Below, one piece after another: positions 15,324-59,271 of a DNA stretch of 64,000 nucleotides. Both the position numbers and the translations under genes were made by a program. The stretch's first letter is position 1; each line of letters starts with the position of its first letter. Source of the stretch: Hirudinaria manillensis (taxonomy: Eukaryota > Annelida > Clitellata > Hirudinida > Hirudinidae); contig CM067529.1 in the NCBI GenBank assembly GCA_034509925.1, positions 3,075,001 through 3,139,000 of the forward strand. Reading direction: 5' to 3'. The notes under the pieces were generated by a model. It did not search any database and had not been told where the DNA came from. It saw nothing but the letters and a program-made list of their open reading frames with translations.

Positions 15324-19460
<4,137 letters not shown>

Positions 19461-30472: not shown

Positions 30473-30642
30473 TCGGCGTGAAATAATTTTTGCGGACGCC
30501 ATATTGTTCGACGACGACGACAGCGGAACGAGTCCTCCAATAATTACACAGTCGACGAGAGACGAATAAATTATGATAATTATGTGCATATTATATGACG
30601 TTTACGTGAACGTAGTAATAGATCATCCTTGTGTCCTCTTTC

Positions 30643-31155
30643 GCTCACTCACTCTTTCACTCACTCACTCACTCACTCACTCACTCACTCACTCACTCAC
30701 TCACTCACTCACTCACTCACTCACTCACTCACTCACTCACTCACTCACTCACTCACTCACTCACTCACTCACTCACTCACTCACTCACTCACTCACCACT
30801 CACTCACTCACTCACTCACTCACTCACTCACTCACTCACTCACTCACTCACTCACTCACTCACTCACTCACTCACTCACTCACTCACTCACTCACTCACT
30901 CACTCACTCACTCACTCACTCACTCACTCACTCACTCACTCACTCACTCACTCACTCACTCACTCACTCACTCACTCACTCACTCACTCACTCACTCACT
31001 CACTCACTCACTCACTCACTCACTCACTCACTCACTCACTCACTCACTCACTCACTCACTCACTCACTCACTCACTCACTCACTCACTCACTCACTCACT
31101 CACTCACTCACTCACTCACTCACTCACTCACTCACTCACTCACTCACTCACTCAC
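30643..31155. repeat. Very long (ACTC)n tetranucleotide array
   Basis: About 510 bp, roughly 125 units, nearly pure. There is an early CTCTTTC interruption near 30653 and a one-base frame slip (CACCACTC) near 30794; the rest is perfect. Three open frames encoding Ser-Leu-Thr-His repeats are artefacts of the repeat. Confidence 0.97.
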
Positions 31156-31442
31156 AATGTACACGAGTTCATTGCTTGGAAACGTATCGTAGGAAACGTT
31201 GAGATCTTCAAATAATTGTCCACGGATGGTCTAATGACAGCAGAAGGGTAGACTTCCACAAGAAAAGATGGTGAAATTTGGTGTAGCTGGAAATGGTAGG
31301 AAGCACTCTGCGGGGGAAGAGATGACCTCGACAAGTGCAGCTTCGAGGTCAGGGAGATGGACGGGTAGACGGATGGACCACTGGCGGATCGGCGTACAGA
31401 TGGATCGTCGATAAGAAGGAGACATTTTGAAACGCGCCCAAC

Positions 31443-34400
31443 TTATTTACAGAAGTGTTCCTCTTTCTCGATCTGACAAGTCTGACAGCGCACGGAACAA
31501 CACCAGTGGAACTTACAGTGGCACCTCTCGGTCACTATGGTGCGTTTCGTGTAGAACCCCCTACCGCAGCACATCAGCTCGCACCCGTCCATACCGGTCG
31601 AGGTACGATTGCAGGATCTCATGTGCGTCCCCAGAGACCCGGTCTTCGAGTCCGGCTCGCAGAAGTCCGGCGACGCTACCAGGTACACCAGGTCGGTCTC
31701 CGTCGGGGTCGGCACGCCTCTGATCTTGGGTATCAGTTCCCTCCTGGCATTGTTCAGCAGCTTCTCTTCCACTTCCACTGCGGCGTTGAACTTTTCCTTG
31801 AGGACCGAAGCGATGTGCCTGAAGGGGCTCATGGCGCGCCAACAGGTCTTCACCTCGCACGAACCTGACACTCCGTGACATTTGCACTGGACTTTCATGC
31901 TCTCTTCTACTACCTATAAAGTGATTAATTAATTAAGTATTAATTAATAAAATTATTGATTATTAATATAAAAGTATTGATTAATAATTGAGTTATTTGA
32001 TTGGAAGGAAGTAAAGGTAAGAATTGATGTATGTGACTAAACATGACCTGAATTATACATATAAAGGACACATAATCATAAATTAACGACATATTAATAA
32101 TTAGCTGATTTTAAATTGATTTATTTACTTTAAGTATTTACTGCTGATGTAATAAATTCTGATAAACTATTCATGATCGAAAAGTAGAGGGAAATAAAGC
32201 AGACGCTTTACAATCGCCGACAACTTCCACGACGACAATAAGTTGTGCATTATCACTCCACTTCAGTCCATAAATAATGGCAATCCGCGTTCATAAACTG
32301 CCGCTCAGTCTTGAATTTATCAAGGATCTGGAATGGATCCGATGCGACGAGGCTGACCATTCTTCCGCCTCAGACATCCATCACACTTTCGTTTTATGGT
32401 GCTCCATGACGTGATGTAAATGTCTTTCAGATATTGTTTCCTCCGATCGCAAGCAATACGGATGCCTACGATTTGTCTGGATCAGTCACGTGGTCGGAAA
32501 ACGTCATCTTTCGGGAAATGTTCGTCCGAAACTTCCGTCATAAATCCAGCGAAGGAAGCGGCCATAAATTTTACACTGGCAGCGTGCGTCGGCATCTCCG
32601 ATCGACAATAACTCACGTCTGGAAGAAGCAATCAAAGATTTACGAGAGCATTTACAACGGACCCAAAGACTCGATGGAAGCATTGAATTCCCATCGAAAT
32701 CTGGATTTCCATCCATCGTAAGGTCGTCCGGTGTGCGAGATGTCTAGCAGGCTGCAAATTACTCTCGCATTTTTCCAGTAACGAACTTCCGGAAAAGCGT
32801 GATGAATGAATCAGGAGAAAAAGGTGCGAACGAACTCAAAATCGAAGGACATTGCTTTCGACATGCCGGATGAGACGCGAGCCGCTTCAGTTCATTGTTT
32901 GATACATCGATTACCTCGAGTCATTACCTGCCATTCGTCCCGCATTCCGGTGTGAACGTCGAGTCGTGTGTGGGTCTCGGTTACAGTCGATTACGACGTG
33001 GATTACGGATACCAGAATAAATCGAACGAGTGCACTTGCTGGGGGCAAAATTTGACATAAATGAAGCTCATTAACGATATCAAAACTATTCAAATCAAAT
33101 TTCCAGAGGTACACATTATTCACGCCCGGGTCTCACACCCGATCCACAGATGGGACTAGGCTCGCCTGATTCCATTAATTCCATTTTCAACCATTATATT
33201 TTCAGTGCCTTGTTTGTGAAAATCAGATGTGGAGGTACGACGGACCTTCTTAGTGCCCAGTCTCCCCCCAAAAACAAGATATTATTCGCGCGCCATCCCG
33301 ACAAAGCTCTTCCCGACACCACGAGGCTGGGTTAACTTATTAATTATGCTAATGAATTAAGGGTAACACCATCAGGCGATTGACTATTAATAGCTTTTTT
33401 TTTGGCTCTTAACTTGAAAGACGTCTTAACCAGGTTGAGAGGCAAGAACGAACGAACGAACGAACGAACGAACGAACGTATGAACAAAGGAGTGAACGAA
33501 TAAATGAACGAGCAGAGTTCCATTGTGTCGTCTGACAGGACTTGTGACAGTTAGAAGAAAGTCACACAAATGTGTCGTCCAAGGCTAAATGTTTGTGCAT
33601 CGTTCCAAGTTTATAAGAAACATGTTCATGACAGCCATTAAGCTTTCTAAACGATGTTCTCGCACAAAACTGTGGACTGAACAAATATTAGCAAGTTCGT
33701 TCGTTCATTCATTTTTTACGAACTTACGTTTGGAGTCCTAAAGCACACTTCGAGCGTCGGAATTTGAATTCTTCAAGTCAACAAAGCCGGGCCGAGAAAG
33801 TGAAGAAAAAATATTTGAGACGTCTCTAAACAACTAAAGCCGGTCAGGCCGTCGTCTAAAAGTGCCATAAAAAGGGAAATAAATGAACTTTACGATTATT
33901 ACAAGCAAAACAACTCGTCATTAACCAAATATTACTTTTAAACAGGAGCCGTAATTGCTTCCACAATCGATGGGGGGTAGACCGGGGGAGCAGAGCCCGT
34001 GCAGCCACGGTAGCAGAAAGAAGAGGAGTGTTTGGACCCCAGACGGGCGTTACTATGTCTATAGATAGACTATCAATCGATCACAGAATACGATTATTAC
34101 AGAATGCTGATTGATTGATTAGGGACGCGTTCGAAACCTGAGCCGAGATCGCGGTTAACCGAGGATGTATATTTCCAATTATAAGTGTTTTCTTTTCAGT
34201 AACTGGTTTTAATGATACATGATAATATAGATTATAATAATAACAATTATGATTATTATTAACATAACAATTTTATAATAATTTGTTTATGGTAGCCGTA
34301 ATAATAATAATTATTATTATCCATAATTTTCGCTTAAAAATTATAATTATAAAATTATAATTTAGTGATTATCGTAATAGTGTTAACCAATCAAAATTAA

Positions 34401-37400: not shown

Positions 37401-40400
37401 GACAAAGAAATGAATACAGAATAAAGTATAAAAACATTAGTTAATAAATATAACTTAAAACGTCAACGTGCCAAACTCGTCAGTCAATTCACTTTAGAGT
37501 ATCATGAGAAAGAGGCGCTGTAAACAATGATCTGCCATCAGATCACGGCCCAATAAACTTCTTTTTACCTACTACGATGTTATAAATTCCAGCCTGTAAC
37601 TTATTACAGACTTACAATTCATGGACTGTAAATAATAGCAGCCTAGATTGGACATTACTAGATTGGGTTATTAAAACTTGTCGTTACAACTTGTTTATTT
37701 TAAATGTTTGTTTTCGGATGTTTGATTTTTTTTTTTAAATTTCGGTTTTGATTGATTTTTGAAGAAGCGCCAAATGAAATGCGTGTTAAATGAATCTGAA
37801 AATAATTAGAAATAAAAAAATAATATAAATTAACGTAAATTACAACTCTCTGAGCTCGATAGTCCTCGCAAACGAGTAATGCGGTAACATGATGTACAAA
37901 TTACAATGTAGTAAACCGAATGCAGTAATTGATGTACAAATTCCTCTCCAACGATTCTCGAACTGAAAATCAATCTTAACTTATTCATTACGATCTGATC
38001 GGCAAACTTCGGCTACAAGAACCTGAGTCAATAGTTCAAAGTTCAAAGTTCAAGAGCTCAAACAAGTCCCCAATTTAAAAGGCAACCAAACTCTAAAAGC
38101 TGTAAATCTCAGGGACTCATAAAGGCATCCACAGACGAACGTAAAAGTATTTTTTTACGGACACACGAATTGCTTTGATGATGTTTGTCGGCTGGAAGAG
38201 AGTTTTTAATGGGTACTTTCATTTCTTCTTGGAGAATAACGCAAAAAGAAAGAGTGACAGGACCCTCTCGTCAACGGGGTCATAAATCAATACCCAGGTG
38301 GTGGGGGGTAGGTTCGATGGTAGTAGGTGTGCAAGTCCCCCCTTTCCACCTGGTCTCTGTTTGTTGTCTCTGAAAGAGAGAACAAAGATCAAGATAAGAA
38401 CCTAATGGTGTACAGGTTTGGCACTTGACGAAGGAAGCAGAGCTTAATTGATTTGTAATTATTCGATCATTAATCATCAATGTTTATTAAAGTAATTATC
38501 TAGAATTAGGAAAGCAATCAGTGAATAAGAACATGAGCTAAAGTGATAAAGAAGAGGAAGAACGTGATGATGATGACGACGATGATGACGACGATGATGA
38601 CGACTGTGATGACGGTAGGGCTTGAGAAGAAATAGAGAACCAGGTGATGAATACAACAGGTGAGCACCTGAATCCAGTGAATTGAGGCAAACCACGAATA
38701 CCCAACCAACACTTTTATCTCTGACAGCCGGAATAGGAAATACTCGTTCATGGATTTGTAAAATGGAAAAAAAGAGACGAATAAAAGAATGCCATGGATC
38801 ATGGATCAATTCATGGATCGATCATTTCATGGATTTCAAAGTTCTTGACGAGAATAACAGAAATCCGGGATAAAGACCGAAAGTAAGATGTTCACAGTCA
38901 ATAAATACCAATTCTGATTTATATTCGTCCGTGGTGGAAAACTAAGATTATTAAGGAGGCAAAGAAATCACACACACACACACAAACTTATACACAGGCA
39001 CGTATATTCACGTACACGTACACACAATCATGACGATGATGACGATGATGGTGAAAAATTTAGGGATTAAAAATTGCCTCATCGTCAGGAAATCAGCAAA
39101 ATCTTTTTTAGAAGAAGAAATGAAAGAGGTGTGAATTATTTTTTAACAACAACAATAATAATAATAATAACAATAATATCTGTAATAGCATTAATAATAA
39201 TAATAATAATAATATCTGTAATAACATTAATGTTATTAATAATAAAATTGTAATTACTAATAAGCACTAAGAATTATTTCAATAAGGTGCTTTATTCATT
39301 TTTCCTTGCGGGACAATAAGTCACGCCAAAACGGAAGTCATGAATGTAGGGATCATAAAAAGAACGTAATACCTCATAAATGACCTTTAAAGCCGGAGGG
39401 CTGTATAAATTTCAAAGTAGTCTAAAGCACAACGAAAGATATTAACTACCGTCGGCGTTGATGGAAATGATGATGAAGATGATGATGGAGATGATGGTGG
39501 TGATGGGGATTGTGATGGAGAGCCTCAGAGGGGTTCACTGGGGCTCAGACATGGCCCCGGGTTAAGGCGATACGGAGGATTTCATCGGATTGCAGGGACT
39601 TCATAAAGTACTTTGATATCGTGGAAGTTTAGCTAACCAGAGATAGGCAATACATGAAATGCTTAGCGAGTTTATCTTAGTGATACGCAGTGGTAGTGGA
39701 GCAATTATGATATACGCAAACTGCGCTAGATAAATGCGAAGGCAGAATGTAAGGATGACTAACAACCACGAAGGACTGAGTTTGATAATTTGTCTTAATG
39801 AAAATAAATATATAATATTTACATGATAATTGATGCTTAATCTTACGAGTATCTTGTTAAACGACTATGATAAGTGCTATTCATTAGCCTTTATCAGTTT
39901 TCAATCTGAATCTCAGATCAAGTGCTCAATAAAACGTGTATTCTTTGAAGACTCATAAAAGTCTATTCGTCGATCTATTAGAGATTACAACATCGCATTT
40001 ACAAACCCATAGGGTCCATTTCAACGGGACCCCCAAGCCACGGGCGCTAATGGATTCTACGAACTTAAAAGAAGAATTGGACTTTTAATCGTTATGTGCC
40101 GTGTGTTGGATCAAAGGGCACGTTTATCTCCACAAGTCGGGATTAATGAATAAGAAACATTTTGTAAATCCTATAAATAAAGCAGGATTCTTTCTCCTAC
40201 GATGGCATCTTCATTACTCATTACATTAAAAAAAAAAGAGCTAAAAAAATATGATTGATATCATAAAATAATAAAATAACGTGAAATTTTCTTTTAATTA
40301 AACTCCGAGCATTAATTTTTTTAATTATATTTGTAATTAAAAGGTTTTTTTCGAATTTAATAGAATGTTATATTTAGATTTAGATCTGGGGGGAAGTATG

Positions 40401-42774
40401 CCAAAAACATCCACCTACCTTTCTACCAGCGTTGTTGTTGTGCAGATTGATGAGAGCCCTTTGGGCGGACTTCCCCCTGACTCTCTCCCTGGCGTCGACG
40501 AAGACCCTGGAAAGGGCTATCCCGAAAGCCACGTTGTCGGAACAGCCGGACCACTGGAGGTCCACGCTACGCGATTTCTGCTGTGGGTGTTGCGGATTGT
40601 TGGACTGTTGCAGGTGACTGGACACCATCCGTCGTACCATGACCTCGCTGGTCAGTCCACCCGGAACGCCGCTCCTGTCGCAACCGCAGCGATCCAACAG
40701 ACCGGAACTGCAGGTTCTCGTGACGCTGTAGGCGACGCCGGCCGACGATAGCGCGTGGACGAATGCGGATTCTTTGGTTCCTAATAATTGGTGATTAAAT
40801 TGATTAATGAATAATAACAATAATAATAATAATGATAGTTATAATAATAAGCAAACATAAGTAGAGGATTAGGTAATGATAGGCAATCAACATTAACGAC
40901 TGTTCCAAACCGACTGACCGTAATTAAGGAGTCTGCCCAATATGTGCGGCCCATCTACCGTGGAGCAGTTCCATCGTCTCCCGGCAAACTGAAGCTGACA
41001 CTGCTCGATGGCTTCGATGGCACCGTGCTTGATCGGGTCCATCATGTCCAGGTTTCGCTTGCACACGGACTTCTGCTTTCTGTCCAGCCAGTCATATTTG
41101 TCGCAGTCGGAATCGTAGACTATTCGCTGATGCTGGGGTAGTTTGGAAATGGCCCTGTTGTGATTTAAGACGTTACTTCTTAATAAGTCCTTGCCACGGT
41201 TTGGATTGTAATTAGTGGCATTCCGAGGAATTAGGTAAACGATATGAGTTCACGGTCTATGCCAATTTCCTGCAAGATTTCGCTGGATTATAAATACATG
41301 TTTGATTTAAGTAGCTGAGTTTGAAAAAGGTATTTAGTGAGAGACCTCTTAGTTTTGCACTTTTAGTCTACACTTCTGTTCTCACTGCTAGGCTCAATGA
41401 GCATTCGAATATCCCACCCCTGAACGGCCTATCGCTAATCTCGCAATCTGATACCGTAGTAGAAGCCATTTTCTTTCCAGTGAAATAGAATTACAGTTGT
41501 CCCGGAAGAGAGATTATCATCCACTTGATCGGCACTAACAGAACCACCAACCGATCACTTCCGTTCTTCGGCAAAGATAAAAAAAAACGATCTATCGTTA
41601 CAGAAAAAATCTTTCCAGTGAATGACTCTTTTTTCTGATTACATAATTGATGAAAAAAAAAACCACTGCATGTTTCTCTTTTGGATTTGTATTAATGCAT
41701 CTCGATGCGCATGGAAAAAGTCAGTCGATGCCGGAATAAATCCAGAGGCGACCCGCTGATTGTCAGGCTATTTTTTTACGGCATTCGGTGAATAAAAAGG
41801 TCGATACCGGGCCCGTAGGCCAACAGATTGATGGTGGAGATTTTACTTTTTTCCACGGAAAAATAGCAAAACGAATGACGCCGTTGGAGTTTTGGGCTCC
41901 GACGAAACAAATCCTCGTGACGTTACACTTAAGTTTGGCGCTCGGGACGGATTGCTTAGCGCCCCCTCGGATCGTGATGGCTATAATTTAATCCTTATCG
42001 AAAACCAAGGCAGACGTCCGGTGGGATGAGGTAAGTCATTAATCCAGAAGTGATCCATTTCAAAACTCAGCGGAAAGGTTCCGGCGACCAGGCCATCTTT
42101 CCTTCTCGCTAGAGAATCGAATGCCTTCCGAAAAAGGGCTATTTTTCTGGCGATTTCATTTCTCTTTTGTTAGACTGCACTGCAGCGGATCTGGCCGATC
42201 AAAAAACGTGCGTTATCCTGAGAATAGGAGATAAATCTATCGCGGAAAGGTACATCAGAGTCTCAGTGAAAATGTCAGCTCCTCCTGTTTATTCAACGAT
42301 TGAAATCTCCTTTCGAAAGGAAAACGACATTTTTCCGACGATCGGCCGTGGAGAACTTCCACACCCGGTCGCCATGGATACGATTCTAGCGCAGACGACC
42401 GAAAATATTTTAAGAGTGCCACTTGACATAAATAAACAGAGATTTCTCGAATCCAAAGCAATCGATTCCGTCATTCCGAGCCGACAACAATGGACCTTTT
42501 CATGATTTGCGAGCTTTCTTTAATAAATTCTAATAGGTAATTCTTCGAGTAACCGGATGACATTGTAAACATCGTGTCTTTGATGGGCAGCCATATCACT
42601 TATTCGTCTTTTCAGATTTCAGATGTGCAAGCGGCTTGCAGAAGTCGAGCATTTATCAACGTGTGATGTAATTCTTTGTTTACCAAGTGCATTGCAAGTC
42701 GCCTGACCATATTTGTTTACACATCGAGCCAAAATTAATTGTGGCATCAACAATAGGAACAATAAAACAACGGC

Positions 42775-46175: not shown

Positions 46176-48374
46176 CACTCGTGTGCCTTTCAGTCGAATC
46201 GTAATAGAAAAACCTGTAGTAAATCGTGTCAAAATAAGACTCCTTAATCACGTGAAATTGAAATTAAGAAGAGGTAGTTACTCACTCGATTTGCGGTGTG
46301 CTGTCTCTGCCGAAACTCATCTTAAACATTCATTTGTTATCCATGTCCACCGGATCGTACGAGTTAATCCACATAGAGAAGCATTTTTTTTTTAATGTTT
46401 TGTTTTTCTAAACTGCAAGAAAACGTTCGAAAAAGGTACGTAAACGCAACGCAAACAAACTCTGCCTGTTCCCCCAGAATCGGACGACGGCGTAGGACAT
46501 GCGATTCGGAGTCAGCCCCCCATCTTTTATATGCCCTGCGAACACGCCTATCGACGAGCGTTCGTTCTTATAAGAACGGTAACTTCGGTTCTATTAACAC
46601 GGCCCTGTAATCTTACCTTACGTATACATACTGAAAGCCGCACACGATACGAGCATCACTGAAGATGTTTCGTTATGCTTTGTTTTGTATTTTCGGGTGT
46701 TTTTTTTGCTGTAAATGTTATTTTTTTATTTTTTTATTTCACGTGCAAAAATTTTTGTCCGGCGAATTAGCAAGTTTTCGATGAAGCCAATAGCTACTGA
46801 ACGATTCAGACGAGTGTGTCGTCGTTTGATTTGAATTGCAAGTTCATAAATCGTCCAAAAGAAGAAAAAAAAATCATCAGACAGGCGCAGCGAGAAGTCC
46901 ACAAACTAATTATCAATTTCAATGCTTATTTTATTCCGAATAATAAATGCGCTTTTGTAAATAAATAATTCTCCGACTCAACTCATGTCTTGAGAGATTT
47001 AGAAGGGGGTCCACCACACCGTGAGACCATGAGACACAAGAGGCAAATGTTTCAAGTTGTGAACTCGAAATTCCAGCAGCCCCTTTTATAAAAGGATCAA
47101 CTCATAAGAACTGGCAATGGAATCACTATGAATTTTAGTGCTAATTTGACAAAAAGTCTATACTACTACTACTACTACTACTAGTACCACTACTGCAATT
47201 ATGCAGATCTATCTGAGTGGAACCAAACGAAGTTAAGCGGTTAAATGAATTCTGAGTTCAATCCATTTTCATAATTCCGGAAGTGCAAATTTGGACAAAA
47301 CCTCTTATTTCTTTCAAAACTTAATCTCACTTTCATGCATTAACCAGTACGTCCTGCTACGGAGCTGAATTTGCGTAACAACGATCTCAAACAATCTATT
47401 CCAAGCATGGGCAAAATTAAGCCAAACAGAAGGGAAATCATTTGTCTCTCCATGATCGATAGCAGCATAGACAAACTAATTTGAGAGGACAAACAATGAA
47501 ACGAGCCCCAAATGGCACCCCTGTCACGGGCCAGTGCATCATCTGCTATCGGCCCCTCAATGTTCCACGTTTGCGTCTTCTTGATAGCGAAATTAGAACG
47601 CAGAGCAATAAAACAATTTCGTATATTAAAGTTAATATTCGAGGATCTATCGTTAGAGCACTCGCCACTAGAAGTTCGATTCAAGGATGATTGAAATCGA
47701 ATCTCTAGAGTCATTCGAGAGTTGGTGGAATGTGTTCCATCCTGCTGGACATTATCCTCAATGTCTGGAAACTATGTTAGCCATGTAGACACTTGTGTTG
47801 TTGTGCAAGCAAGGTGGAAACCACTATTTAACCATTTTCTTTAAATGGGCAAATTTCGAAGAAATTATTGTTTAATTAAGTAAATTAAGCATCTTCGGTG
47901 CTAAACTCTTGAACTGCCCGCATGTCCCAAACTTCTATCACTTCAATGCACAAGTGCCACACAAGTGGACACATTCTTAATTCATATTACTTTACAGTCT
48001 CTAGCAAACTAAAAGGACCACCCATTGCCAAATAATATATCGGTTCAACTCGCAAAATATATCGGCCTTGATCGTATTGTCTTAAAATCCTTTTAAGAGA
48101 TTTGAACGCGATTATGGATCCAGACAAATTTTGATTAAAAACAAATTCATTATTATTACAATTATTACAGTTACTATGGTTACACTGTGTGACATTATTA
48201 CGTAATAAAACAGTAACCATTGAAAGCAAAAACAAAATAAAACATTTCCAGACATTTAGACACCAAGAATTATAAACACTCATCTTTGGAGCCTCCGGGT
48301 GAGACCGACGTTTTAAAACCTCGCAAAGCATTTTCAAGAGACAATAAACGTCTCTTCCGAGACAGAAAATCGTC
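46176..48374. other. Wnt4 5' region and proteasome beta1 3' region
   Basis: 2.2 kb without a supported exon. It includes a (TAC)n run at 47160-47182 and, near 47655-47690, GTTAGAGCACTCGCC followed closely by GTTCGATTC, which resembles an internally deleted tRNA or tRNA-derived SINE. Confidence 0.5.
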
Positions 48375-49410
48375 TCACGTAACCTCGGAAGGAAAATGTT
48401 TCAGGTGATCGTTCAGGACGATCAAAGAACTGCAGCCATATTTGGTGATGTCCATCAGACGGACCACACCTCCGCTCGATCCATCCCGCCTGATCCCGAG
48501 AGTCACGGCTGTTTATTCAATCGCAATTTATCTAAGTCGTGACTTCAAGGATCTGCTTGCTCTTAGTTACTTGATAATTTATCCGAAGTGATGTTCTGCC
48601 AATTAAGTGTAAAACATTTTTTTACCTTTTTCTGCCAATTCCAGGCATTCCCTTCGGTTCATGTTTTCTCTGAAATGAAAGTCCATGAGGGAGGCGATGT
48701 AAGAGCTCCCCGAACCAGCCACAGCGTATGACTGAGGAATGCACAAACCATCAAAAGGAATATCATATATCTGAAAAGTTATATTTACAATTTATTTCAT
48801 TTTAACTTTTTAATCCAATCGAGGCTTCAAAATAACCTGGAATCCTTCCTTACTGTCCCATCCAGCACATATCATACTACATTCCATGTATTCTCGATTC
48901 TTGTAGCACAGCTCGTGGAACATGGATGAAGCCATCTTAACGGTAGGTTCTGCTTTAAGTTCTAAACTATTGTAACAATAATTAGCCAATTCCATTTGAT
49001 AAGTTTAAACATCAATGGACCGTTTAGCTCACCTCAAAAGTGACAAATGATAAGATACCCGTTCGATGATTACGTGCGTATCAGCTTCAGCTCCAGATCG
49101 ACAACAAAATATGCTTTGTCTTAGTTGGACCAACTTGTCGGCAAATCGATTTATGATATCTTCCCTGGTTATAACAAACACTGACATTAACGTGAGAACA
49201 TAAGATGGCATTTTGGTTCAAACAAACTCGATGGTCACTCTGGAATCCCCAGCGAGAATGATTCCATCCTTGTATTTTACAGCAACAATTGTAGTCTGTC
49301 AGGACAGTTTACTATTTATTAAATGGAGCATTTCCTAGTCAGTTATATATTTAAAAACTAACGCCGCACTTTGATTTCCTATGTGTTATGGTGGAGCGAT
49401 TCCTTAACAT
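48375..49410 (-). CDS. 20S proteasome subunit beta1 (PSMB6-like, caspase-like activity)
   Basis: Six minus-strand exons: 49363-49410, 49228-49295, 49033-49164, 48837-48966, 48626-48770, 48375-48508. Together they give 218 aa: a 16-residue propeptide ending in Gly and a 202-residue mature chain starting TTIVAV. Counting from Thr1, the hydrolase residues fall exactly where expected: Thr1, Asp17 (AGDSR), Lys33 (RFADKL). Arg45 (IFCCRSGAEADT) is the S1-pocket residue of caspase-like beta1. Downstream are AVAGSGSSYI and RRDGSSGGVVRL. The propeptide is cut by autolysis at Gly-Thr when the 20S core assembles, and the subunit cleaves after acidic residues. It is odd that residues 23-25 are Glu-Glu-Asp, not the usual Gly-Ser-Tyr. 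The immunoproteasome paralogue LMP2 is excluded by Arg45. Confidence 0.93.
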
Positions 49411-49717
49411 GTTACAAGCAGAAAGACACATTGGAACGAAAACAAGCAGACGATAAATGACACCACAAATCATGAATTGAGAATAAGACTTTTATAATAT
49501 TTTTGCACTTAAGAGTGCAAGCAAGTGATATATTGTAAAGGTAATTCAAAATATATCAATGACATTTATTTAAATAACATTTTAGTTAAATGCATCACAT
49601 ACAAATGTTCACTATTCATTGGTGATGTGGACATAAACAAAAAATGCCTGACCGGCGTATTGGTTAAATTAAGGGCGGATAATTACGCGTTTAATTTTTT
49701 TTCGTAGCATTTCCATT
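49411..49717. promoter_or_regulatory. Candidate bidirectional promoter between proteasome beta1 and the ORF1p-like gene
   Basis: About 300 bp separates the two head-to-head start codons. It is AT-rich, and I recognise no definite core promoter motif. Confidence 0.4.
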
Positions 49718-50761
49718 ATGCACAAGAGTAACTACAACATTTACAACAATGAGAGACCAGACACTTCCAATCTTCGTTCGCTTTGCATCGAGGCCGGCTT
49801 CAATGAAACTAATTTGGTTCCACCTAACACATTGTCGGATAGTGTTGTTCAATTGACAGATAAGAATTCAATGCTAGCTGATAAAGTAGCTCACTTAGAA
49901 GAGGAAATTAGTCAGCTCAGAGAAGAGAATGCTTTTCTCCTAAATCAACTGAGAAGGCAGGAAGTAAGCCATGAAACTATTGAAAGAAGAGTTAAAGATC
50001 TTGAATTGTTATTATGTGATTTGAAAAATAACGAGGCCGAGTTGGATAAATCCCACGAAGGAGAAAATAATAAAGCAATAGAACAAGCCATTTCTGACAA
50101 TGTTAAGAAACAAGCTGATGTTGAATCTCGATTTAATGCCTTCGTCACTGATATTAACGGCATCAACAAAAAGATGGACGTTTATAGTTTGCACTTGACA
50201 GACATATCAAAAGTGGTCTACAAATTAGAATCTGAGGTTCAAAAGTTTGTTAGAAGACACTGTCTTGTAATTGAAAACTTTTGTCCAAAAGAAGACAGTT
50301 CTGCAATGGAAATGTTATTACTTTTTGCCACATCAGTATTGAATGTAAAGCTTGAAGAGTATGACATCGAAAGTCTACAGGTTATCGAAAGAATTCCTGT
50401 GGAATCCCTGCCCGGAACTCCAGAGAAAAGGATCTTGCCGAGACCGGTTCTGGTCACCTTCACTTGTTACAGGACGCAAGACCAGATTTACAAATCCTGG
50501 CTCTCTTTCCGATACAAAAGTAATCCGGGATCGCTGTCAAAAGGAAGAGGACAGGGAATCACGATAAAAGAATATTTGACCGAAAACCAGGAGAAGATAT
50601 ACAGTGAAGCTCTCAAGCTCAAAGAGAAGCATTTTGTCACCGACTGCTGGACATACAAGGGCAAGACTTACATAAAGAAAACTGATGGCGTGATCTGCGA
50701 GTTCTCCAACAGCAATGAAATTGTTCCCAAGAGTGACAGCTCTAGCTGCTCGGTCATGTGA
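49718..50761 (+). CDS. LINE-1 ORF1p-like coiled-coil/RNA-binding protein with C-terminal CaaX box
   Basis: Intronless 347-aa ORF. Residues about 42-110 form a heptad-rich coiled coil (VAHLEEEISQLREENAFLLN). Residues about 178-262 look like the RRM-type domain of L1 ORF1 proteins: HCLVIENF as first strand, IERIP, then PRPVLVTFTCYRTQDQIYKS, comparable to the RPRPI-x-V-x-F pattern. Residues 280-330 resemble the ORF1p C-terminal domain (ITIKEYLTENQEKIY, then DCWTYKGKTYIKK). ORF1p-type proteins trimerise and coat RNA. No reverse transcriptase, target-site duplication or poly(A) tail is visible nearby, so this may be a domesticated, stand-alone copy. The last four residues, CSVM, fit a farnesylation motif. 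Codon use is normal and no stops interrupt. Family assignment is by pattern only. Confidence 0.7.
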   Translation: MHKSNYNIYNNERPDTSNLRSLCIEAGFNETNLVPPNTLSDSVVQLTDKNSMLADKVAHLEEEISQLREENAFLLNQLRRQEVSHETIERRVKDLELLLCDLKNNEAELDKSHEGENNKAIEQAISDNVKKQADVESRFNAFVTDINGINKKMDVYSLHLTDISKVVYKLESEVQKFVRRHCLVIENFCPKEDSSAMEMLLLFATSVLNVKLEEYDIESLQVIERIPVESLPGTPEKRILPRPVLVTFTCYRTQDQIYKSWLSFRYKSNPGSLSKGRGQGITIKEYLTENQEKIYSEALKLKEKHFVTDCWTYKGKTYIKKTDGVICEFSNSNEIVPKSDSSSCSVM

Positions 50762-52245
50762 CGAATCAATCAAAAATTCTACGTTATCGTGCAAAATGCA
50801 AAGTGACTGCTGTATGTGTCGATTTGTAATCTTTCATTTGAAATTGTTATATTTTTATTTAAATATCAGTTTCCTCAGAATTAGAAAAGTTTCCTCAGTT
50901 CTTAGGGGCATCGTTGGGTTCGTTTAGTTTACCTCCTTGTCTACTCTCATCTAATTTTCCCCATTTAGCATCTATGTGTAAATTTTGTTCTTGAAGTGCA
51001 TCCGATGTTGTGCTTTGCTTGGATTTGTGCATTTGTGATGGTTTTGTATTTTGAGACTGCAATGTTTTTGTAAACTTTATGAGCCAAAAACTACTGTGTT
51101 ATTATGTAACAGTAAAACTGCTATCTGAGAGTTAGAGAAGTGGTAGGTTGGTGCCAAGAAAATATAACTTAATATCTCGCTTTAAATCTTCAGTTTGCAA
51201 AATGTGAATTTAGAAAACTGAAATTGGTGACTTATTGTTGATTATTATTTTAAAAATTCTTGATGTCATAGGGATAACTTCTGGCCAAATGTGAATATTA
51301 TTGTGACAGGATATTTACGTACAATGCTTCTTTTACAATGAGGAAATGCTTTGTGTTGGGAATATAACTTTTGTGTTTATTGTTATATTTGTTGTGATGT
51401 GAAGAGCTATCGAATATGCTTATGAATTCTATCTACAATATTTACCAATTGATGTATTGCAACAAAGATTGTTTTTATAAACCATAAAGTTATACAGCAT
51501 TTGGCTGTACTATCAGGACAAAATATAGTTCAGGTGGATATAATGTCCTCTGCTTTTGGATTTTGGAAACAATTTTTGAATTGATTTCGGTTTTAGTTTC
51601 GTCGGGGCAAGTGGTCGTCTCAAACTCAGATAATCCAATGATCTTCGACGGTTAAGTGTAAGTGCTACTATCGGATCTTGCCATTCGGTTCAAAGTTAGA
51701 GGTTCCCCAGTGTTGTTTGAGACGGGCGGAGATGATTTAGACGTCCTTTGTTTTGCAATATTTTGTTGGAATTACGTAGATGTTGCCACTTTTGTTCGGA
51801 TTTATTTAGAATTTACGAGAAGAATCACAAACAACCAGTTTACATTTTTCCCCCGCTCTCAGGTTGCGATGGCTAATTGGCTTCTTATGTTTGCCTAGGT
51901 TTTCAAAAGAGGTTATAAGTAGCTGGTAGAATTAAATAGGGATAATGAATTTCGTTCACTTTTGCAGTCGTTTGTCGAAACAAATTCATGTAAACAAGCC
52001 GCGATGACAGACACGTGACGTCGCCCATTCTGAAATTTCGTTGCGTTGAATTAAATTTCGTAAATTAATTATAAAAATTATTTACTCTTAAAATTCAGTA
52101 TTAATACCATATTTTAAGAATGTTGTAAAACTTTTAAAATACTCGACAAATGTTTTTCTGTTTATGGTATACAACCACACATGTACTGTCAACAGATCCC
52201 CAATGCTAAAAAAGGAATAAACACTGAACGGGTTGGGTCGGATTT
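50762..52245 (+). other. 3' region of the ORF1p-like gene and 5' region of RPB1
   Basis: No supported exon. Oddly T-rich on + up to about 51.9 kb, which suggests a long 3' UTR. CACGTGACGTCG (52012-52023) lies about 230 bp before the RPB1 ATG. AATAAA occurs near 52213. Confidence 0.5.
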
Positions 52246-55200
52246 ATGGAAAAACTACTATCAAGCACAAGCGTCCCCCAAAAAACTGTCCAAAAAGTGC
52301 AGTTTTCGATTCTGGGTCCAGAAGAAATTGTTGGTATTATTTTGATTAAATCGGGCATTTAAAACAGCCTGTCGTTTTTAACATGCTCAACTCAGTCCTC
52401 TTGAAATATTTCTCGACAGCTAAAGCAGTCTGTTACTCTCCCAGATGGCATAATTTACCCAGAAGCATATGAAGCAGGAATGCCTAAAATTGGAGGCGTC
52501 ATGGACCCTAGACAGGGTATCATTGACAAGATTGGAAAATGTAAGACTTGCAACGGGAAGATGCACGATTGTCCAGGACATTTCGGACACATCAATTTGG
52601 CAAAGCCAGTCTTTCAGGGTCATTACATGAACTACATTAGGAGTGTTTTGAAGTGCGTATGCTTCTCGTGTTCAAAACTTCTCGTAGATCTGGTGAGTGA
52701 TTTTTAAAAGTATATTTTTGCGGCAGTCACATCTTTTATCGTTTTTGAATCATCCGACTACGACCAGCAAAAGCAAGCATAACATAACATAGCGATAATT
52801 TATAGTGGTTAAGAAGACCTATGTTCGCTTATTACATAACTCCAATAACTTTGAATAAAATAATCACTTAAGACATTTAAAATATTTAAAAAAAACTTTG
52901 CTAAAATTAAAGAGACAAATTACGTCCGATACCGCTCCAATACACATCAATAACAAACTTAAATGACCTAACGATAAGTAATTGCATTGCCCTAACACCG
53001 TCTTAGACGAGCTGGACCGAATCACGTTTCAAAGTTCATATCAAAACAATATGCATCAATGCATGTATAAAGTTACATTTAATTTATACTTAATTACAAC
53101 TAGTTTAATTCCAATAAACATCGTTAATCAGAATGATGACAGAGTTAAAGAAGTTCTGAGAACGACAAGAAATAACGCAAAGAAGCGAAGAGACACGATA
53201 GTGGAACTGTGCAGAAAGGTTGGAAGATGTGATACTGGAATCAACATGGAAGAAAATGATGCAAACGACGACCATACCGTAAAAAAGAGGGTTAGTAATC
53301 CATTTTATTGTTTATTAACTTACCCGATTAATTATGCAACCCAAATAAAAACTCATGTTTATCTTTTATGATAATTTGTCGGTTCTTTAAAAAAAATTTG
53401 CTTAGTGCGATCAGTAATCGTCCATAAATAAATGGAAAGCTTCAAAATAAACATTTCGATTATTTGCCTTTTCGAAGGAAGCGCTATATAAATTACGCAC
53501 TTTATGTTTTCTCAACATTTGGTTGATAGTTAACTGAGCGGTCTTTGTTGCAAAGTATTAAAACCTTTACGTGCTCTTGCTGGATGTGATCAAAAGAAAC
53601 GAACTGACATGCGATCAATTTTCATTGCTGAATAAATATTAAAATTACAAATATAAAGTTAATGTTAACATTGTACTATGTTATTATTTAGAGTGGTGTG
53701 GTTCTATTATTATTATTATTATTATTATCATCATCATCATCATCATCATCATTCTATAAATTTTGTTTCTCAAACGTCAGACCGGTTGTGGAAGAAGCAA
53801 ACCTCACATGATAAAACGGGATAAAATGGAGTTGACTGCCAAGTGGAAAGATCCTTTCGACGAATCTGGAGAAACTACTATGAATCTTACGGCTGAAAAG
53901 GTCCTAGAAATCTTTAAGGCCATGAACGATGAAACCATCGAAGCTTTGGGCTTTCACGTTAAGTTTGCCAGACCAGAATGGATGATAGCCACAGTTCTCC
54001 CAGTTTTGCCGCTCTGCGTACGACCCAGCGTTATTTCGTTTGGTACGTCGAGAAGCCAGGACGATCTGACTCACAAACTGGCAGACATAGTGAAAGCCAA
54101 CAAGAAGTTGATAGACGACGAGCAGAACGGCATGGCGACTCACATTTTGGCAGATGATCTTAAGCAATTGGAGTTTCACGTCAACACCATGATCGATAAC
54201 ACCATGCCAGGAATGCCGAGGGCTACCCAGAAATCCGGACGTCCACTTAAATCCATTAAACAGAGACTGGTCAGCAAAGCAGGCAGAGTGAGAGGAAACT
54301 TGATGGGCAAAAGAGTGGACTTTTGTGCCAGAAGTGTCATCACCCCCGATCCAATCCTGAAACTCGAAGAGGTTGGAGTTCCAAGACACATAGCGCAGAT
54401 TTTGACCTTTCCTGAAATAGTCACACCCTTCAACATAGACATGCTGTCAGAATTGGTAGCAAACGGACCGAATCATTATCCTGGTGCAGTTTATATAATC
54501 AGGAATAATGGTGAACGCATTAATCTCAGACTTCATCCAGATCCAAGTCATCTACATCTGGAATACGGCTACAAAGTCGAAAGACACTTGAGAGACGGAG
54601 ATACGGTGGTTTTTAACCGTCAGCCATCTCTGCACAAAATGTCCATGATGTGTCACAGAGCCAAAGTCATGTCGGGATCGACCTTCAGACTCAATCTTAG
54701 TGTCACTAAGCCGTACAATGCCGATTTCGACGGTGACGAAATGAATCTCCATTTGCCACAGAGTCTAGAAGCTAGGGCTGAAGTCGCCCAGCTTGCCTCA
54801 GTACCCAGGATGATCGTTTCACCCCAATCCAACAAACCGGTCATGGGCATAGTCCAGGATTCACTGACGGGCGTTTACAAGATGTCGTCGAGGGATGAAT
54901 TCCTGACCAAGGAAGAAATGATGAACCTGCTCATGCACTTCCCCGAATGGAGCGGGCGACTGCCTCAACCCGCGATCTTAAGGCCTGTTCCTCTTTGGAC
55001 AGGCAAACAACTTTTCTCTGTTCTTATTCCCGGAAGAGTCAACTGCATGAATGGCTCGGACAGCAGTGACAGATGGATGGACCCGGACGATTTGACAGTC
55101 CTCGTCGAAAATGGAGAGCTTCTCAGTGGAATCCTTTGCAAGAAAACGCTCGGTGCTTCTGGGGGTTCACTCATGCATGTAATTTATCTTGAAGAAGGAT

Positions 55201-58200
55201 ACGAGGAGGCTGCCAGGTTTTATACCAACATTCAGTTGGTTGTAAACCAGTGGTTATTGATTGGCGGTCATAGTGTTGGAATATCAGATATGATCGCCGA
55301 TGGCAAGATTTTCATGGATGTCCGCGATCTTATTATAAAGGCGAAGGAAAATATTGCCGGCATAACAGACGACTTGCATAGTGGCAAGCTAACCAAACTG
55401 CCCGGTTGCACAGTTAAACAAACTTATGAAAGCAAGGTCAACCACCTTCTCAACGAAGCCAGAGACAAAGCTGGAAAACTGGTCCAGATGAACTTGTCGA
55501 GGTCAAATCAATTCAAAAACATGGTCGCTGCAGGGTCAAAAGGTGACATCAGCAATATCTCCCAAATCATAGCCTGCGTAGGTCAGCAGAACGTGGAGGG
55601 CAAGCGTATCCCGTACGGCTACAACAACAGAACCACTCCCCATTTCGTTCTTTTTGATACCGGACCGGAGGCTAGGGGATTTGTTGAGAATTCTTACCTT
55701 GCTGGTCTGAATTCATACGAGTTTTTCTTTCACGCTATGGCAGGAAGGGAAGGTATTATCGATACTGCCATCAAGACATCAGAAACTGGATACATTCAGA
55801 GGAGATTGATCAAGGCTATGGAAAGTATCATGGTGAACTACGATGGAACTGTAAGGAACCAGGTCGGTCAACTGATCCAGCTCACCTACGGCGAGGATGG
55901 TCTTGCCGGAGAGTGGGTAGAAAAGCAGCATCTACTTCCCGATAAGTTGAACAACACTGCATTTGAAAAGAGATACAAATTTTCACTCGATGACAAAAAA
56001 TTGAAGAAAGTCCTGAACAAGAACATCTTTAATGACTTGAGCAGAGACGCTCAAGCATATCAAGCTTTCGAAATGGAGTACGAACAGTTATTCAACGACA
56101 GAATAGAACTAATGAGAATCTTTCCCTCGGGCTGTGAAGACGTAGTCCTGCCTTGTAATCTGAAAAGAATGATATGGAATGCTCAGAAGATCTTCAAGGT
56201 CGAAAATAACCGCTCGAACTTAAATCCAGTCCGAGTAATTGAAGACGTGAGAGAACTTTGCAACAAGCTGAAGATAGTCAAAGGCGCTGATCATCTTAGC
56301 ATCTCTGCCAACAACGATGCCACTCTTTTGATGAACATCATGCTCAGGTCGACGTTGTCATCCAAGAGGATAGCCGACGAATTCCAATTGTCTTCTGAAG
56401 CGTTCGATTGGCTCATTGGAGAGATAGAGACGAGGTTTACACAAGCCCAAGTACCTCCTGGTGAAATGGTCGGCGTTTTGGCTGCTCAGTCGCTGGGAGA
56501 ACCTGCCACTCAGATGACGCTGAACACTTTCCACCACGCTGGTATTTCGTCCAAAAACATCACCCTCGGAGTACCGCGTCTGAAGGAGATCATAAACGTA
56601 TCGAAGCAGCCTAAGTGCCCTTCCCTTACCATTTTCCTCGAACCCGATACCGCAATGGACATCGAAAAAGCCCATGAGGTCATGAACTCTCTCTCATTCA
56701 CCGTCCTAAAACACGTTCTGGAGTCAAGTCAAATTCTTTACGAACCCGATCCGTCAACAACAGTGATTGAAGAAGATCAAGACTTGGTGGCTACGTGCTT
56801 CTGCTTAAGCGTAATCGATCCCGACAAACTATCCCCATACGTCTTAAGGTTAAAGATGGATCCCCAAAAGCTTTACGGACATGGAAAGGACATGAAGGCA
56901 TCCTTGATTGAAGAAAAAATTCGGGCCAACTTCGGGGATGAACTGGATGTTTCCAGTTTCGACGAAAAGGACGTAGTGAGAATGAGATTGATCTCCAAAG
57001 AAGACGAGGAGGAAGACGCAGAGGTTAGACTTATCATTTACATAATCCAATAGATAAGCTTTAGAAAGTTAACGACAAATTTATCTCTTTCCACCAGGAA
57101 AAAATAGACAAAATGCCGGACGATACTTTCCTCAGGCATTTGGAGAACAACATGATGAACGATTTGGCTTTGAAGGGTCATCCTGACCTTAAGAGCGTAA
57201 GCGAGATACTTACTTTTTTGTCTAAAGTAAAGAATATGTATTAAAACCTCAACTTGTTTTCAGATCCATTTGTGTCAATCCACTAACAAGACAAGGCAGA
57301 TCAAAAGGAGAAATGCCAACGGAGATTTGAAATTAACAAGCGAATGGTATTTGGAAACGGAGGGTACTGCTTTCCAATACGTACTTTCTGTAAACTACGT
57401 CGATCATACCAGCACTAGTAGTAACTGCATCACTGAAACCTTCAAGGTAAGTAGATTCCATCTATATCAATTATACAATTCACACTGATATGTTTTGAAT
57501 TCAAAAGATCTTACAATGCCTTTAAATGTATATTTATCGTAATAAGAAAATTTCTTTGTTGATATTATATCATATTAATCATAATTACAAGAACCATAAA
57601 ATTAAAAACAAACTAATCTTGTAAAAGGTTCTGGGCATTGAAGCAGCCAAGAAGACGATAGAAAAGGAGATGAACACCGTTCTGTCCTTTGACAGCTCCT
57701 ACGTCAACTATCGCCATCTGGCTCTCCTGTGTGATGTCATGACAAATAAAGGTGAACAAAATTTAAATAATTGACTTGTGACCAGTGACTTATGAAATAT
57801 TTTAAACATTTAAGGACACTTGATGGCTATTACAAGACACGGCATCAACAGGCAAGAAACCGGTGCCATTTCAAGAGCTACCTTCGAAGAAACCGTACGT
57901 TTTAATTTTAATTGGGCAGTCGTAATTTGTGAAATTAACCCGAAATAATTAACTAATGATCAATAACTTATTATAATACTTATCCATAATTTTCCATAGA
58001 TGGACATATTCGTTGAAGCAGCAGTTAATGCAGAACTTGACCCGCTGTTAGGAGTTTCAGAGTGCATTATGCTCGGCAAATTTGCCAAAATCGGAACGGG
58101 ATGCTTCGATATCTACCTTGATCCAAAGTTGTGCGAGCAGGCATTTGAAGATCCCTCAGGTAAATGCCTTTATAATGGTTACGGTTCCCAGGGCCAGAGT

Positions 58201-59271
58201 TTTCAGAATGAATTATTACAGTATCAGTTAATTAGAATAAGCTCTCATTTGCAATATTCCTCATTCTTTGCATTGTCCAGAGAAGCTTTTCGTTTCTAAC
58301 AGCATAATTATTTGTTTTAAGGTCTCTTCAATGGGGGTCTAAGAGAACCCATGGCAGATATTTTGGGTGGGGCCACTACACCCTGCTACAATTCTACCAC
58401 TCCGTTATGGAGCGGATCCAGAAGTCCAATTGCTGGGGGATTTTCACCGACAGACTTCAGATCAAGTCCGGGTCTTAGTCCGGGATTCAGTCCAAGTTAC
58501 AGTCCTGGGTACAGTCCAGCTTGGTCTTCAGGTGCAGCTTCTCCGGAATATGGTTCTAGTTCGCCGGGTTACACTCCCAACACACCATCGTACGCCCCTG
58601 CGTCACCTGGGTACAAGCCTTCCTCGCCTGGATATACGCCAACCTCGCCTGGTTACACTCCTACATCGCCTGGATATGCGACCACCTCGCCTGGTTATAC
58701 ACCAAAGTCGCCTGGATATTCGCCAACATCACCGGGTTATTCCCCGTCCTCTCCGAGTTACAACGTAACGTCTGCTGGGTTCAACAATGCTCACAGACCC
58801 TCAGACACTACAAAGACCCCTAGCTACTCGCCTTCTTCACCGGTCTATTCTCCCACTTCACCGGGGTACTCTCCGTCTTCCCCCAATTATACGGCGACCT
58901 CACCGGCATACTCTCTCAAGACACCTGGCTACACGCCAACGTCGCCCAACTACACTCCGGGCTACTCACCCCCATCGCCAGGAACTTCTCCCACCTCCCC
59001 CAGATATTCGCCTTCATCACCTGCCTATACTCCAGGATATTCCAATACATCTCCAGCCTACTCTCCTGCATCCCCATCATATTCCCCATCGGCCGGTTCA
59101 TACAGCCCTTCCTATACCCCGACATCGCCATCGTATTCACCCAGTTCTCCGTCTTTCACTCCCATGTCGCCTAACTATGCGGGATCACCTTTCTACTCAC
59201 CATCATCGCCGTCCTATGTACCCAGTTCACCTGCCCTCAGTCCCACCTCACCGGCTGATAATGATGATTGA
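52246..59271 (+). CDS. POLR2A: RNA polymerase II largest subunit RPB1
   Basis: Ten exons: 52246-52329, 52420-52692, 53132-53290, 53781-57023, 57098-57196, 57264-57446, 57628-57751, 57815-57894, 58000-58159, 58322-59271. Phases agree; product 1784 aa. Domains in order: N-terminal [12 protein letters not shown], clamp zinc site ([17 protein letters not shown]), [14 protein letters not shown], catalytic [16 protein letters not shown] (Asp 487, 489, 491 bind the active-site Mg2+). Then the bridge helix region with [20 protein letters not shown], the trigger loop ([18 protein letters not shown]), [17 protein letters not shown], and a Pro/Ser/Tyr CTD from about residue 1510. The CTD has about 30 heptad-like units, none exactly YSPTSPS, and ends PADNDD. 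Exon 4 alone is 3.2 kb. It transcribes mRNA precursors with the other Pol II subunits. Many normally invariant positions differ from typical animal RPB1. Confidence 0.96.
52693..53131 (+). other. RPB1 intron 2
   Basis: AT-rich intron with no other feature seen. The open frame running in from 52982 is intronic read-through into exon 3. Confidence 0.7.
53291..53780 (+). other. RPB1 intron 3
   Basis: Contains (ATT)n then (ATC)n at 53709-53751, close to the acceptor, and GCGCTATATAAATT at 53481, the reverse complement of the dispersed TTTATATAGCGC motif. Confidence 0.7.

Follow-up and report, generated by a model that had tools for sequence, protein, structure and literature searches.

In the cited parts of the literature, L1TD1 is called the only known domesticated gene derived almost entirely from L1 (PMC4161310). 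It is a eutherian host gene, L1-derived, RNA-binding and made up of little else than LINE ORF1, that lacks an ORF2, encodes 865 aa in human and contains two ORF1-homologous regions (PMC4161310, PMC11925450). The Bex/Tceal genes, which arose from HAL1b ORF1, have been presented as the second metazoan domestication of a non-LTR element (PMC7586669). In Tceal7, the whole ORF lies within one exon that follows two non-coding 5′ exons, and the protein shares 31.7% identity with HAL1b ORF1p (PMC7586669), while all Bex proteins are said, in the section cited, to end in CaaX, with function unknown (PMC4303428). Outside animals, the EKA effectors of fungi are reported to derive from LINE ORF1 (PMC4641428). 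The order of coiled coil, single RRM and C-terminal domain (CTD) corresponds to the type II ORF1 of Khazina and Weichenrieder and, as the cited text has it, is present in the L1, CR1, L2 and R1 clades (PMC4120745).

Two further proteins bear on how an ORF1 product might meet a membrane. The esterase-type ORF1p of ZfL2-1 binds phospholipids and liposomes, and the passage cited speculates about Gag-like membrane targeting (PMC3905857). ZAP-L, the long isoform of PARP13, binds RNA, is farnesylated at a CaaX end and resides on endomembranes, and ZAP restricts LINE-1 (PMC4441479, PMC12582503). Judging from a section heading, the zinc finger domain of ZAP is sufficient for LINE-1 restriction, so farnesylation would not be needed for this effect (PMC4441479). 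Among the matches listed in our searches of the open-licence PMC literature, neither a prenylated ORF1p-derived protein nor the domestication of an invertebrate ORF1 was found. In the same literature no paper joined ORF1, a non-LTR retrotransposon, RRM and prenylation, and none linked FP25K with ORF1 and a retrotransposon or dealt with Baculo_FP.

The window analyzed here, a 64,000-nt stretch of a leech genome (C4:3075001-3139000), was examined together with the genome itself (148,429,096 bases in 23 contigs). A stand-alone LINE ORF1-like gene was found at 49718..50761 on the plus strand of the window. It comprises 347 open codons with no internal stop, followed by TGA, and its product ends in SDSSSCSVM. 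The chance of 347 consecutive open codons is ~2e-12 at the background base composition and ~2e-11 at the composition of the ORF itself. When codon usage was scored against that of the neighboring RPB1 exon, the true frame ranked highest with 0.26 bits per codon, and none of the other five exceeded 0.08. The synonymous-codon part of this signal was weakly RPB1-like, at 0.06 bits vs. 0.22 for RPB1, which is itself the training set. A sequence-only reading of the locus had described a fully open frame with a Cys-Ser-Val-Met terminus; the frame is indeed uninterrupted and coding-like in its codon use, CSVM occupies residues 344-347, and that observation on the ORF is thus confirmed.

The same reading had assigned to the protein a coiled coil, an RRM-like region and a C-terminal domain, in that order, and the heptads together with homology to leech LINE ORF1s bear this out. 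A heptad coiled coil extends over residues ~38-183 (49829..50266, plus strand). Its heptad score was reached by none of 500 shuffles, residues 38-182 are free of proline, core positions within residues 136-177 are hydrophobic in 12 of 12 cases, and GCN4 and L1 ORF1p were matched in the coil only. The RRM-like region follows at residues ~183-270 (50264..50527, plus strand), supported by profile alignment from residue 200 onward, with the first strand (residues 183-199) placed by eye. The CTD, at residues ~279-339 (50552..50734, plus strand), is supported by hhalign and contains the conserved residues E285, L287, T288, W311, T312, and G315. Residues 200-324 aligned with a profile built from the ORF1s of five leech LINE families (L005, L012, L021, L045, L047; profile A2) with an hhalign probability of 96.7, an E-value of 3.7e-10 and 31% identity over 106 columns. 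Within the aligned block, 16 of the 27 columns that are invariant in the five LINE proteins are kept by the ORF and 11 are lost, and the ORF shares the CTD signature E.LT ... WT..G with LINE ORF1s. Overall identity to the leech LINE ORF1s is just 21-24%, and the ORF carries long loops of its own. The LINE families are themselves far apart, at 36-47% identity to L005.

Searches of domain and structure collections returned little beyond the coil. No Pfam family exceeded its cut-off on the ORF; the best match was SHE3, over the coil (E 4e-5, 23.9 bits, cut-off 30). The first ~180 residues matched coil-type families only, the last 170 residues had no Pfam match, and PF02994 was absent among the 24 families listed for the ORF up to E 10. 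In PDB, human L1 ORF1p was matched by sequence in the coil only (2ykp/2yko, E 1.7-1.8), and the RRM-CTD part of the ORF alone matched no chain up to E 10. LINE profile A2 found the 6fia coil at E 0.21, and LINE profile A1 did not find L1 ORF1p up to E 10. Direct homology to the solved L1 ORF1p was dropped, as there were only weak coil matches. Of the earlier label "L1", then, the architecture and the kinship to LINEs stand, whereas PF02994 was unlisted and the match to human L1 ORF1p was confined to the coil. Since the order of coil, RRM, and CTD is also found in elements of the CR1, L2, and R1 clades, "L1-like" is used here for architecture, and the alignments leave descent from L1 itself unproven; by its domain order the ORF belongs with type II LINE ORF1s. 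As a separate observation, the CTD of all five leech LINE ORF1s matched PF25298 (Baculovirus FP domain 2), with two scores above the 24-bit cut-off and three below it, which hints at a link between LINEs and viruses. A genome search with PF25298 located 30 matches, of which 26 exceeded the cut-off, and none of the 30 was the ORF.

Genome searches recovered the gene as a single copy. With the whole protein as query, 34 candidates were scored and 18 reached E ≤1e-3, namely the ORF itself and 17 partial matches with 30-34% identity, 16 of which span 84-90 residues and one 117. A query with the last 170 residues, read up to E 10, matched all 32 candidates: the ORF, 25 at E ≤1e-3 (29-34% identity) and six weaker ones. 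The first 195 residues returned only the ORF and three weak matches (E 0.15-3.5), and 3.7 kb of DNA around the gene (48700-52400) matched only itself. Thus, in the searches made, for which match counts are lower bounds, the ORF and the surrounding 3.7 kb are single-copy and a second copy of either half was not found; this is the copy count that the sequence-only reading had called for. The ORF has its nearest kin among the LINE families of this genome, with 29-34% identity over mostly ~85 aa. Relatives were confirmed neither in viral contigs, where the protein query gave 7 pattern stretches and the alignment A1 query 32, nor in a set of genome contigs that includes no other animal genome, where 24 stretches were obtained.

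The rest of a LINE is missing from the locus. Three leech LINE ORF2 pieces, run by tblastn against the 64-kb window, gave nothing up to E 1, and a full 986-aa ORF2 with reverse transcriptase gave two chance-level matches (E 2.8 and 7.5) far from the gene; four of five LINE ORF1 queries run by tblastn against the same window matched the ORF. Among the LINE kin, a downstream ORF2 was identified by a Pfam endonuclease at two loci and by endonuclease plus RVT_1 in one full 986-aa frame, and at the remaining loci the ORF2 frame was recognized by eye only. The ORF is thus neither multicopy nor followed by an endonuclease/reverse transcriptase ORF2, as a LINE would be, and it has what is looked for in a domesticated ORF1: an intact frame in a single copy, with the rest of the element gone. 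Its earlier description as a stand-alone gene without ORF2 is supported by the lack of ORF2 similarity in the window, and many near-identical copies beside a reverse transcriptase, which had been named as evidence against that description, were not seen.

A 19-nt direct repeat, matching at 17 of 19 positions, brackets the ORF (49565..49583 and 50854..50872, both on the plus strand) and is a candidate target-site duplication. It was the only direct pair found that does so. No 19-nt pair with as few mismatches occurred in 100 dinucleotide shuffles of the flanks, the length of 19 nt having been picked after the fact. Of 227 other window stretches with this geometry, 3 had a repeat with as few mismatches (1 of 61 at matched G+C), and all three were simple-repeat or low-complexity matches. 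After these two comparisons the pair was no longer put down to chance and is listed as a candidate only. No poly(A) precedes the right copy, no tandem repeat adjoins the 3′ end of the ORF (the two weak arrays in 47000-53000 both lie outside the gene), and no Rfam family matched in the window at gathering thresholds. Retroposition may have left this repeat behind; were it a target-site duplication, some 1.27 kb with ORF1 alone would have been retroposed. LINEs are usually 5′-truncated, so an ORF1-only remnant would be unusual as debris.

Upstream, the gene is arranged head-to-head with a proteasome gene. A six-exon model on the minus strand (48375..49410) encodes a proteasome beta-1 (PSMB6) paralogue, supported by PDB and Pfam matches; the best PDB matches of its fourth exon are PSMB6 chains (E 5.2e-7, 32.7 bits, 43 aa). 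The idea that this neighbor is a frame-broken pseudogene was dropped, because the six exons have matching phases and read through as an intact frame. It shares 47% identity (91 of 194 aligned columns) with a second copy on contig C11, whose pieces were cut by eye. The corresponding stretch of the C11 copy, an 81-aa query, gave a far stronger match to PSMB6 in PDB (55 residues, E 4.2e-14, 56.1 bits), which identifies the copy in the window as the diverged one. The claim of a head-to-head housekeeping neighbor therefore holds for the orientation and for the proteasome beta-1 identity, but the neighbor is a diverged paralogue and not the conserved copy. It may be a tissue-specific proteasome subunit; by analogy with other proteasome paralogues, the two divergent genes may form a pair whose activity is restricted to certain tissues, perhaps to the germline.

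The start codons of the two genes lie 307 bp apart, and the region between them (49411..49717) is a candidate bidirectional promoter. A donor-like AAG/GTAATT at 49541 and an acceptor-like TTTTTTTTCGTAG/C ending at 49707, 10 nt before the ATG, would delimit a putative 5′UTR intron (49541..49707, plus strand). These consensus matches are suggestive only, and pyrimidine-rich AGs like TTTTTTTTCGTAG number 206 over both strands of the window, or 1.6 per kb of strand. Both the divergent layout and the splice-like signals are consistent with transcription as a host gene. The next gene downstream is that of RPB1, the largest subunit of RNA polymerase II, with exons at 52480..59271 on the plus strand (Pfam Rpb1 domains at 53760-59271; the exon at 52480 was placed by reading). 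By eye, the RPB1 C-terminal repeat (58321-59271, plus strand) looks strongly degenerate, with many SPGYTP/SPSY variants. Elsewhere in the window we observed a long tandem repeat at ~30600-31200, read as (THSL)n/(LTHS)n in three frames; Wnt-like exons at 31443-31913 and 40380-41249 on the minus strand, recognized by eye only; and a 542-aa open frame at 17832-19460 on the plus strand, whose match to the SIK3 UBA domain (PF23312, E 2.2e-5) stays below the cut-off. Hirudin-family exons were matched four times in the genome, three times over the Pfam cut-off, which marks it as that of a leech.

The C-terminus of the predicted protein is a CaaX-type motif, Cys-Ser-Val-Met (50747..50758, plus strand), preceded by a Ser-rich tail. 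CSVM fits the farnesyltransferase consensus, and residues 344-347 satisfy the C-a-a-X pattern of FTase/GGTase substrates. The tail is longer than that of a LINE protein: 27 residues follow the conserved K320 in the ORF vs. 19 in the ORF1 of L005. None of 46 C-termini from 47 LINE kin loci has Cys at position -4, many places being counted twice in this sample and two of its frames ending early. Neither a polybasic stretch nor an adjacent second Cys occurs near CSVM. CaaX-like ends occur on ~1% of the stop-to-stop ORFs in the window that reach 60 aa: 3 of 328 under a strict definition and 4 under a loose one, this ORF being counted in both cases. Prenylation at CSVM is a plausible guess from the motif. 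The sequence-only reading knew of no relative of the RNA-coating ORF1p that combines with prenylation; a precedent is Bex, which derives from HAL1b ORF1 and carries a CaaX end according to the sections cited (PMC7586669, PMC4303428).

Set beside the known systems, the leech gene resembles L1TD1 in being nearly all LINE ORF1, presumably RNA-binding and without ORF2. It differs from it in having one ORF1-homologous region, leech LINE kin and a CaaX end. With Bex/Tceal it shares derivation from a LINE ORF1 and, in the case of Bex, the CaaX end (PMC7586669, PMC4303428). In the accounts cited, however, Bex/Tceal proteins have a mostly disordered N-terminus and retain only part of the ORF1 frame, whereas the leech protein has coil, RRM, and CTD. 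The five leech LINE ORF1s agree with it in all three domains as well as in the invariant columns noted above, and unlike it they occur at many places, lie next to ORF2 where tested, lack CaaX and have a shorter tail and loops. In ZfL2-1 ORF1p, by contrast, contact with lipid is made by the esterase domain and not by prenylation, and the protein is without structural RNA-binding domains according to the cited part of the report (PMC3905857). ZAP-L is a works-like analogue and as a zinc-finger/PARP protein is unrelated to the ORF product.

Taken as a whole, these results suggest that the ORF at 49718-50761 has probably been domesticated by its host. In its full form, as a single-copy host gene derived from a type II LINE ORF1, with an oligomeric RNA-binding product, a divergent promoter shared with its neighbor and possibly a farnesyl group, we give this reading a probability of about 0.6. 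On this account, the host gene would go back to ORF1 in a type II LINE and may have arrived as a retrocopy of ORF1 alone. L1 ORF1p oligomerizes through its coil and coats single-stranded RNA, and the ORF product, being of the same fold class, is expected to do likewise: it would self-associate through its coiled coil, probably forming trimers as L1 ORF1p does, and the RRM/CTD pair would bind single-stranded RNA. Transcription would probably start from the divergent promoter shared with the PSMB6 paralogue and proceed through a spliced 5′UTR. The Ser-rich tail may carry a farnesyl group at CSVM, and this would keep the complex of RNA and protein at internal membranes. As to what the protein does we can offer a guess, the likeliest roles being those of an RNA chaperone, of a regulator of translation or of a factor that interferes with LINE RNPs made by the leech itself. 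More speculatively, such a protein might act as a non-LTR-derived, membrane-bound "Gag" that ties RNPs of LINE or host origin to endomembranes, perhaps in the germline and together with a variant proteasome subunit. In its most specific form, that an invertebrate LINE ORF1 became a farnesylated, membrane-anchored, RNA-coating host protein restricting LINEs in the manner of ZAP-L, the proposal is doubtful.

Whether the lipid anchor belongs to this picture is close to an even bet, since the ORF could equally be a domesticated gene whose CSVM is coincidental and whose product is an unlipidated RNA chaperone like L1TD1. The base rate of ~1% among window ORFs, the many ORFs inspected in the sequence-only reading and the lack of a second membrane signal all favor coincidence; against it, the motif follows a Ser-rich tail, fits the farnesyltransferase consensus, and sits on an extension missing from the LINE proteins found in this genome. 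A different challenge is that selection has not acted at all, and that the ORF is an unselected relic or a solitary insert of rather recent date, be it a retrocopy of ORF1 alone, the sole survivor of a LINE lineage that this genome has otherwise lost, or a horizontal arrival, whose frame is still open for want of time to decay. Its divergence from the leech LINEs could date from the phase as an active element, the LINE families also differ widely from one another, and the 17/19 repeat around the ORF resembles a target-site duplication and may mark a young insertion. Retroposition of an ORF1-only unit is equally compatible with a nascent host gene and with a lone unselected insert; the candidate duplication slightly raises the odds of a relic and slightly lowers those of a host gene. 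On the other hand, no sibling copy was found in 148 Mb, there is no ORF2 remnant, the 3′ tandem repeat and the poly(A) are missing, and the copies of the repeat differ at 2 of 19 positions, so that even a true duplication would not be brand-new, as far as 19 bases can serve as a rough guide. We regard an unselected insert as rather unlikely.

Two further explanations would alter the origin or the extent of the gene. The ORF may not be LINE-derived and may represent an ancient RNA-binding gene of animals that has this fold and is the source or sister of LINE ORF1s; the low overall identity to LINEs, the loops of its own and the splice-like 5′ region are consistent with this, but the shared domain order and CTD signature point to LINEs and, coil matches aside, no non-LINE relative was found in the collections searched, PDB and Pfam. 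We consider such an origin highly improbable. It is also improbable that the ORF forms just one exon within a longer spliced gene whose ends, the C-terminus included, differ from those read here. The good acceptor-like site shortly before the ATG makes an upstream exon probable; yet only 307 bp separate the ORF from the ATG of its neighbor, the frame is closed upstream of 49673, the ATG has an A at -3, and no strong donor was seen by eye before the TGA.

The preferred reading, that of a domesticated ORF1 gene, adds to what is known in particular respects. Domestication of a LINE ORF1 is known already; new in the leech gene are its non-mammalian host, the full order of coil, RRM, and CTD, and the possible lipid anchor. 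A leech gene in which all three domains are kept would show that ORF1 has been co-opted in further phyla. If the CaaX motif is real, its recurrence with Bex would suggest that ORF1-derived proteins gain membrane anchors repeatedly, and it would bear on what ORF1 RNPs do at membranes, a question raised in the cited discussion of ZfL2-1 (PMC3905857).
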